Positions 12,701-15,700 of a stretch of DNA of 64,000 nucleotides are shown in pieces (the stretch's first letter is position 1; every line of letters begins with the position of its first letter). Location: assembly GCA_903813345.2 (NCBI GenBank), contig CAIIXF020000003.1, positions 12,972,931 to 13,036,930 on the forward strand, in the 5' to 3' direction. Both the position numbers and the translations under genes were made by a program. This stretch comes from Owenia fusiformis (taxonomy: Eukaryota > Annelida > Polychaeta > Sabellida > Oweniidae). The notes beneath the pieces were generated by a model. The model was not told the DNA's origin and searched no databases. It saw only the letters and a program-made list of their open reading frames with translations.

Positions 12701-15700
12701 TGTTTACATGCTTATTATACGGTAAACTAAAAAACTAATTATGTAAATGGTGTTATGCAATTTACTGGATGATTAATGATCGTCATTATAGTCCTAATGT
12801 CTATACTTTTTGTGGTAGACTGAAATCAATAGAGGGTTATAAAACATCAATCATATGTTGCAAGAAAATGAGACAAAACAAAATACAATCCCTAAAAATT
12901 ATATAAAACATATTAAACTTATATGACATATATGGATTGTTTGTAATTGTAATGCATGGCATGTTCAAACCTTGTTGACTCCAATGAAATAGTGCATTGA
13001 AGTACAATTAGTGTAACCATCCACTAAATTAACATGAAGCTATGTTTTGTAAAGTATACTATTGGTCAACATTTAACCAAGATGTAACCATGAAATATAT
13101 GTGCATTTATTGTATTCATTTATTGTACATGAACTTCCATTTTACTTAAGTATGCCATTGGCCAAAATTTAACAAAGATTGGACTATGATATATGTTTGC
13201 ATTTATTGTACATGTTTATTGTATATTGCAGGATGCTCATTTCTGAATATTACCACCACATATGCTGAGAGTGGATCAGGTTTCACAGTGCCCAGTGCAG
13301 CTTCTAAGGCAGGTGTAGAGGCAATGTCAAAGTAAGTATTGTATTACAGTACCAAAGTGGCTGGGTGTAGAGGCAATGTCAAAGTAAGTATTGTATTATA
13401 GTATCAAAGTGGGTGGATGTAGAGGCAATGTCAAAGTAAGTATTGTATTATAGTATCAAAGTGGGTGGGTGTAGAGGCAATGTCAAAGTAAGTATTGTAT
13501 TATAGTATCAAAGTGGATGGGTGTAGAGGCAATGTCAAAGTAAGAATTATATCACTGTTTCAAAGTGGGTGGGTGTAGAGCAATGTCAAAGTAAGTATTG
13601 TATTACAGTATCAAAGTGGGTGGGTGTAGAGGCAATGTCAAAGTAAGTATTGTATAACAGTATCAAAGTGGGTGGGTGTAGAGGCAATGTCAAAGTAAGT
13701 ATTGTATTACAGTATAAAGTGGGTGGGTGTAGAGGCAATGTCAAAGTAAGTATTGTATTATAGTACCAAAGTGGGTGGGTGTAGAGGCAATGTCAAAGTA
13801 AGAATTATATCACTGTTTCAAAGTGGGTGGGTGTAGAGGCAATGTCAAAGTAAGTATTGTATTACAGTACCAAAGTGGGTGAGTGTAGAGGAAATTGTCA
13901 AAGTAAGTATTGTATAACAGTATCAAAGTGGGTGGGTGTAGAGGCAATGTCAAATTAAGTATTGTATTACAGTACCAAAGTGGGTGGGTGTAGAGGCAAT
14001 GTCAAAGTAAGTATTGTATTACAGTATAAAGTGGGTGGGTGTAGAGGCAATGTCAAAGTAAGTTTTGTATTACAGTATCAAAGTGGCTGGGAGTAGAGGC
14101 AATCTCAAAGTAAGTATTGTATTACAGTATAAAGTGGGTGGGTGTAGAGACAATTATGCAATTCACTCACCCATGGGCAATTCAAAAACACTGCCTAAAT
14201 GTCAGACATTGACATTTGGTTTGTCAAGTGCACTCAGTTGTACATTCTGTACAATAAAATGACTTGTTGAAAAATCCAATCATCATTTTCAAATTGCTCA
14301 CATACCTTAGACAAAGTCTCTTATATTTTGCAGTTTTTGAAAAATTAAATTTCATTAGATCTCAGGCCCGTAGCCAGGATTTGCCAAGGGGGGTTCAATT
14401 TTCAAAAATTTCCAGGGGGGGTTCACATTTGACAATTTTTGCCCAAATTAGGCTAAAATCACTAGATAAGTGCTCAAAATGGTCAAAAACTGCATGATTT
14501 TGAAAGAATTTTTGGCCAGGGGGGGGGGGGGTTCCTTGCGAACCCCCCCCTGGCTACGGGCCTGGATCTACATGAATTTTACAAAGAGTGGTTACAAGAA
14601 TTTATGCAAAATATGAGCACAATTACATTCAAAAATATTGAAATTCCTTGCCAAAATATTGAAAAGTTAAGCTATTTTCAAAATGTCTAGTAGTATCATG
14701 TATTAATTGTTCAATTAATATCAAAACCAACCTTCCACAGTAAACCTTTGTGTGTGATATGATGATCTACCATAAGTTTTTTTTAAATTTATTTCAGATG
14801 ATATTTTGTTAACAAAGATGGCAGTTTAACTGAATTTGTCTATTCTCTTTGTCTATTTCAGGTCTTTGGCTGCAGAATGGGGACGCTATGGGTTGAGATT
14901 CAACTGCATACAGCCTGGCCCTATATATACAAAGGTACACTGATTGAAATTAATTTCTTAACAATATATTGAGCATAAGCCATTAGGTGCTCATTCTGAA
15001 ATGTAGCACTTCATCAAAGAGAGCAAGATTTCCATAAATTATGTCTGATTTAGTATATTCCTTGTAAGGCCTGTTTCAAAAAAAAACATTTTCATTTCAT
15101 GAGTTACAATAGTGAGATAGTATACTGTTAGTCAGCTTGATTTGCCATGATTTAAGATGGCGAATTGGGCAAAATTGGAAAATTAGCGGAGATTTAATTT
15201 GGCAAATATAGCAAGAATAGATGGCTGTGAAACTGGCAAATTTCACAGGTGAACCAGTATTAATGGTGGTCAACATAAGTAGGTGAAAATATAAGCCAGG
15301 TGAATAAGAAAGTGAAAAAGGAAGCCTCTGTGGCGATTTAAATTGAATCATCTTTTATTCATAAGAATAAATAAGCTCTGCTTATCAACTGGATGCTCTC
15401 TTATTTCTAACACCAAATGGTCCACTTTATTGGATAAATCTGATCTTGAACATTTGAACAATATCTCTGAACATAAATTACACTGGATGAAAATTTCCCG
15501 GGGATTTTAAAAAATTGGCAAAGACAGGATTTGGCAAATTTTTGCAATTTGCCAAATTTGACAAATTAAATTGGTTGCCAAATGACTAACAGTATTTGGA
15601 ATTAGTGTAGCAACGAAAAATAGATGGACTGTGTGTTAAAAGTGTAGATTTAATATTCTCGACTTTGACACAGGTGATCGTAAACATTGTTTTATTTCTA

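Follow-up and report, generated by a model that had tools for sequence, protein, structure and literature searches.

A minisatellite spanning a splice donor in the DECR1 gene of Owenia fusiformis has the structure of an amphioxus mirage

The DECR1 gene of Owenia fusiformis carries a 52-bp minisatellite that begins inside exon 5, crosses the 5′ splice site, and repeats both down intron 5. This architecture, in which a tandem repeat straddles an exon/intron boundary, has been described in amphioxus and termed a mirage (accessible parts of PMC3087553 and PMC3902484). By its structural features, the DECR1 array is a mirage. The host gene is intact despite the array, and arrays of the same construction start at the exon ends of other genes in the genome. 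The reading that we favor, at a probability of roughly 80%, is that the mirage is a near-neutral minisatellite, tolerated by a spliceosome that would take the 5′-most of the donors offered to it.

Within the window, the 64-kb stretch of DNA (64,000 nucleotides) that was analyzed, DECR1 was built by translation as a model of eight exons and 332 codons plus a final stop, with zero internal stops (Table 1). The 332-residue product matches 2,4-dienoyl-CoA reductase (PDB 1w6u) over residues 34-332 with an E value of 5.5e-136, which bears out the gene identity given in an earlier sequence-only reading. Tandem Repeats Finder describes the array with a period of 52, 16.3 copies, a match of 92%, and a score of 1432; the units measure 51-53 bp. 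The array of the earlier reading and its start at the edge of exon 5 are thereby confirmed, with an end at 14154 in place of 14150, and its origin from an exon edge holds as well, in that the unit opens with the final 20 coding bases of exon 5. A MITE-like element of 202 bp, with perfect 16-bp inverted ends (CAGGCCCGTAGCCAGG) and internal G-runs and C-runs, is also found in intron 5. Elsewhere in the window, a G-rich array around AGGAGGTAGGG is assigned overlapping periods of 21, 32, 64, and 117 by Tandem Repeats Finder, and an Rfam search of the 64 kb returned zero matches.

Table 1. Positions of the DECR1 exons, the donor array, and related features. Positions are those of the window unless another locus or contig is named.
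Feature	Position	Strand	Remarks
DECR1 coding region	6722..17983	+	8 exons; translated model and PDB match
DECR1 exons 1-4	6722-6772, 10899-11013, 11278-11432, 12352-12586	+	
DECR1 exons 5-8	13232-13331, 14862-14934, 16529-16675, 17861-17983	+	
DECR1 exon 5	13232..13331	+	100 nt, phase-2 end, ...VEAMSK
DECR1 intron 5	13332..14861	+	1530 nt; array makes up over half
DECR1 exon 6	14862..14934	+	acceptor is top-scoring AG of intron 5
52-bp minisatellite	13312..14154	+	16.3 copies; per unit 20 nt of exon 5 and 32 nt of intron 5
Exonic part of first, authentic unit	13312..13331	+	last 20 coding bases of exon 5
Authentic 5′ splice site	13332..13340	+	GTAAGTATT; donor GT at 13332-13333
Decoy donors (14)	13384..14118	+	GT positions in the two following rows
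Decoy donor GTs, first seven	13384, 13436, 13488, 13540, 13591, 13643, 13695	+	
Decoy donor GTs, last seven	13746, 13798, 13850, 13903, 14007, 14058, 14110	+	
Unit 13, donor lost	13950..13960	+	AAATTAAG in place of AAAGTAAG; T at 13955 removes the GT
MITE-like element	14363-14564		in intron 5
G-rich array	56842-57132		
Tetraspanin array (L042)	2707-3688 (G000:C1:442706-443687)		54 bp x 18, 42 nt exonic; Pfam 7.2e-15, three exons joined
BLOC1S5 array (L043)			52 bp x 33, 43 nt exonic; Pfam Muted 3.7e-14
FANCI array (L075)	1458 onward (G000:C5:3182612 to about 3184837)		41 copies, 54 bp
CRIPT array (L103/L104)	G000:C8:35928500-35937400		31-bp unit; matches over about 7 kb, middle part not among the sequence read
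U1 snRNA array	G000:C9:23745153-23771556		step mostly about 750 bp
Candidate acceptor-side mirage	G000:C2:33853411-33854610		54-58-bp unit

GTAAG is kept in 15 of 16 units. The 9-mer of the authentic site recurs exactly in 12 of the 16, as GTAAGAATT in two, and as GTAAGTTTT in one, and the GT is lost in one. The acceptor-like string, which had been attributed to every unit, reads TATTACAG in only eight of the 16 when counted by eye, TATTATAG in four, TATAACAG in two, and neither of these forms in two. Relative to the consensus, the 16 units show three changes in the 17 exon-derived columns, three in the six donor columns, and 28 in the remaining 29. There may be some constraint on the exonic part and donor, which have six changes in 23 columns against 28 in 29 for the rest, a difference without significance when tested by columns (P 0.12). 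Five variants are common to units 5 and 10, which match throughout, and one to units 7 and 12; probably, therefore, about five units were duplicated as a block. Taken over all units, however, the sharing of variants at a lag of five gives a weak signal (P 0.021 when lag 5 is tested by itself and 0.20 for any lag from 1 to 8), and the case for such blocks rests mainly on the one identical pair, units 5 and 10.

Long homogeneous arrays are prone to assembly error, and a mirage in amphioxus, that of BflGb6, was seemingly misassembled in a draft, according to the accessible part of PMC3087553. That the DECR1 array or its copy number was inflated during assembly is nevertheless highly improbable, the least probable of the alternatives considered here: the units carry private variants, similar arrays occur at many loci on chromosome-scale contigs, and an assembly error would not put an exon edge at the start of the unit. 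A whole-genome DNA search with positions 13250-13420 (171 bases) gave seven matches, all inside the array (one candidate place scored), and no second genomic copy of it.

The authentic donor has eight contiguous bases complementary to the 5′ end of the U1 snRNA of this genome, ATACTTAC. The four U1 loci that were read, among at least 42 U1 matches, all start with ATACTTACCTGG, and every intact GTAAGTAT therefore pairs with U1 no less well than the authentic donor. Since the 9-mers of the 14 decoy donors are identical or nearly identical to that of the authentic site, donor strength cannot explain which of them is chosen. When folded, the RNA from 13232 to 13500 showed no special structure in which the first decoys would be concealed (z -0.49), and thus nothing here explains how the decoys would be ignored. 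Among the 42 U1 matches listed, 34 lie in one array (Table 1).

The authentic donor is placed in phase 2 after AA, such that a retained donor reads AAG TAA. Because read-through of the first donor meets this TAA at once, translation from any of the 14 later donors gives the same 219-residue product, ending in VEAMSK and the stop. Only the first donor yields DECR1, as the sequence-only reading had held; its further statement that later donors would usually shift the frame does not survive, the truncation being identical in all 14 cases and the frame irrelevant. The early stop precedes the next junction by 48 nt if donor 2 is used and by 100-774 nt with the remaining later donors.

Acceptors were scored with a matrix trained on 18 acceptors of exons in this analysis. 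When each of these was left out in turn, they scored 1.4-14.1, with a median of 7.8. The acceptor of exon 6 scores 16.6, the best in intron 5, but is itself part of the training set; another AG of intron 5, at 14797, scores 11.9. The AGs of the array score up to 7.8, within the range of the real acceptors, and a model in which mirages give rise to introns has been published (accessible part of PMC3087553), as has a potato case (accessible part of PMC4974935). It is nonetheless very unlikely that the units serve now, or will come to serve, as micro-exons or as new introns of the kind gained by tandem duplication. Most of the better AGs of the array score only 4-6, a 34-nt unit exon, e.g. 13609-13642, would shift the frame, and the reading frame of the translated model, derived from genome sequence only, needs no array unit as exon or intron.

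Similar to the mirages of amphioxus, the DECR1 array combines a short unit that crosses from a coding exon into the intron beside it (20 + 32 nt), a splice signal within the repeats, and an intact host gene with the authentic boundary, the first donor, at the end of the cluster. The unit of 52 bp lies within the 10-72 bp given for the Adh3 mirage in the accessible part of PMC3902484. The amphioxus literature, which includes papers on globin and PGBD5 genes, describes such repeats on the donor side as well as on the acceptor side, and regular splicing is reported there to be undisturbed (accessible parts of PMC3087553 and PMC3902484). The main differences are the host, a lancelet rather than O. 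fusiformis, in which DECR1 has 16 copies and other genes up to 33-46, and the length polymorphism and somatic instability of the Adh3 mirage, whereas the DECR1 array is known from one assembly. The host genome has 12 chromosomes, where lancelets have 19-20, and contains three hits above cut-off to the annelid linker domain Eryth_link_C inside 15 kb, one of them interrupted by a stop, although homologues of linkers may also occur in animals other than annelids. Searches for the GFP family, a weak negative since its controls gave no signal either, and for COX1 returned no hit. Related cases exist in human and potato, as far as the accessible parts of PMC2812944 and PMC4974935 describe them. In human genes of segmental duplications, minisatellites of about four copies with units of about 30 bp are likewise found at exon-intron boundaries; these variable internal tandem repeats were found through variation among paralogues and alter gene structure (accessible part of PMC2812944), whereas in DECR1 the structure is kept. 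In intron gain by tandem duplication, the duplicated segment also crosses an intron-exon boundary, but a new intron is spliced there, and nothing in the genome sequence of DECR1 indicates one. The accessible part of PMC12783039 describes tandem repeats within an intron of an earthworm metallothionein gene and does not state whether they span a boundary. No report of mirages by that name outside amphioxus was found in the open-licence literature, as judged by titles and the beginnings of abstracts.

Arrays of the same construction are present in other genes of O. fusiformis. A genome-wide pattern of three GTAAGT hexamers at a spacing of 26-56 bp gave 7013 matches compared with 7153 for its reversed control, which means that the hexamer by itself shows no enrichment in arrays. 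Six places were examined among nine of the matches listed for this pattern; two of them are exon-edge arrays, in a tetraspanin gene and in BLOC1S5, and no exon edge was seen at the other four. The BLOC1S5 locus had been considered as a dynein, a reading rejected on its Pfam match to Muted/BLOC1S5. A complete census required three perfect copies of AAGGTAAGT at 29-59 bp across the genome and yielded 92 triple matches at 12 loci, the flanks of all of which were read. Eight of these loci begin in exons with homology support (two weakly), one begins in a probable exon, and one possibly does so. The homologies are to UGDH (1.5e-10), a ubiquitin protease of the USP type (1.3e-8), an I-set Ig domain (1.7e-6), CRIPT (1.3e-7), Got1/Sft2 (3.3e-6), and NCS-1 (2e-10) and, more weakly, to FANCI (5.7e-6, under the Pfam cut-off) and ABCC5 (E 0.01). 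The open-frame exon at locus L102 is presumably that of DIP2, an identity for which Pfam, PDB, and NCBIfam gave no support. At L099, the possible exon-edge case, a candidate exon lies just upstream and the units are degenerate; a GPCR-like reading of this exon was not confirmed. At L105 and L107, no exon is visible in the flanks.

In 10 of the 12 arrays that start at an exon end, DECR1 among them, a stop follows within 15 codons once the first donor is read through. The exceptions are the tetraspanin array, open for 332 codons past 16 later donors, and the FANCI array, open for 139 codons past seven. Splicing from later donors of the tetraspanin array would lengthen the protein by 18-residue repeats of its last membrane helix.

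How often arrays form at splice motifs bears on whether splice sites start tandem arrays more often than other sequences do, for example through co-transcriptional R-loops, U1 pausing, or breaks. Array loci number 12 per 7128 occurrences of AAGGTAAGT and 12 per 11810 of the reversed control TGAATGGAA (Fisher P 0.21); two of the control loci consist of a single match each, and of these the one on a small contig may be due to chance. For the acceptor word TTTTTCAGG, 14 loci in 14154 compare with at most two in 8571 for its reverse (P 0.04), the acceptor loci being known from matches alone and five of the 14, as single matches, perhaps not being arrays. Pooled, the splice motifs give 26 loci in 21282 against 14 in 20381 for the controls, an odds ratio of 1.8 (P 0.083). 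Donor arrays form at the background rate or at up to about twice that rate, and acceptor arrays perhaps at more; the enrichment at the acceptor motif hints that seeding near splice sites is not wholly random. Targeted seeding is all the same improbable as an account of the arrays: the donors alone show no significant excess, and the comparison employs one control word per motif, clusters loci from the matches listed, and counts motifs instead of annotated splice sites. A deficit of donor arrays, as expected under strong selection against them, is not seen in the motif census either. As a rough extrapolation from 9 of 7128 motifs, with 27,000 genes and an assumed 5-9 introns each, the genome would hold about 170-310 donor arrays. 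A candidate acceptor-side mirage, with a unit beginning TTTTTCAGGTACAGCTTGATGCGTC, is known from 20 overlapping matches alone (Table 1).

The fate of the decoy donors was followed in the units after the first of 12 arrays: those of DECR1, tetraspanin, and BLOC1S5 together with the nine loci of the census that have an exon end. Relative to consensus, 22 of 452 GT positions are changed, 45 of 1356 in GTAAGT, 313 of 8176 in the exonic part, and 65 of 1158 in other intronic columns, counts that the census demand for three perfect copies biases toward conserved donors. In these arrays, the decoys are neither eroded nor conserved in excess (GT versus exonic part, P 0.26; GTAAGT versus all other columns, P 0.23). 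The CRIPT array has the most altered decoys of the 12, with the GT changed in 10 of 90 in the part read.

These counts also weigh on the proposal that the array is regulatory, with decoys competing for U1 and copy number tuning the level of DECR1 through truncated transcripts that are decayed (AS-NMD). The raw material for such a switch is present in DECR1: 14 decoys, most with 8-nt complementarity to U1, all lead to the same early stop 48-774 nt ahead of the next junction, and the exonic part and donor are the least variable columns of the unit, if not significantly so. Conservation of decoys is, however, not observed across the 12 arrays, the identical structure is found in unrelated genes, and the mirages of amphioxus are reported without disturbance of splicing (accessible parts of PMC3087553 and PMC3902484). 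A role of copy number in regulation is possible for the DECR1 array and without support here; we regard this explanation as unlikely, to about the same degree as targeted seeding.

The near-neutral reading accounts for the array in few steps. An ordinary minisatellite would have arisen whose first unit, by chance, spanned the 3′ end of the exon and the 5′ splice site, and repeated tandem duplication, by slippage or unequal exchange, would have carried the exon end and donor into the intron. Since duplication in tandem across the donor does not alter the preceding exon, the correct first donor is kept at any copy number. The spliceosome may then take the 5′-most donor either by exon definition, acting from the body of exon 5, or because the first donor transcribed is the first used. 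Occasional use of a later donor would give the 219-residue early-stop product, the transcript of which is a candidate for nonsense-mediated decay. With the first donor used and rare slips ending in an early stop, the array would be close to a neutral passenger.

The broader implication, which we consider to have about even odds, is that mirages are not confined to lancelets and form a genome-wide class of near-neutral minisatellites in an unrelated animal, in which hundreds of donors would be multiplied 5- to 46-fold and tolerated at a near-background level. On this broader reading, tolerance of hundreds of donor arrays would imply a strong rule by which the spliceosome selects the 5′-most of equal donors. 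Length-variable proteins would also be possible: in the tetraspanin and FANCI genes, in which the unit length is divisible by three and the frame is open, later donors would add whole 18-residue repeats. Many equal donors after one exon constitute a natural test of which of several identical 5′ splice sites is used. Should the first donor alone be used at many genes, then site strength and U1 pairing would not be decisive, and exon definition or the order of transcription must decide. The genome of O. fusiformis supplies many replicates of this test, differing in copy number, unit length, and frame.
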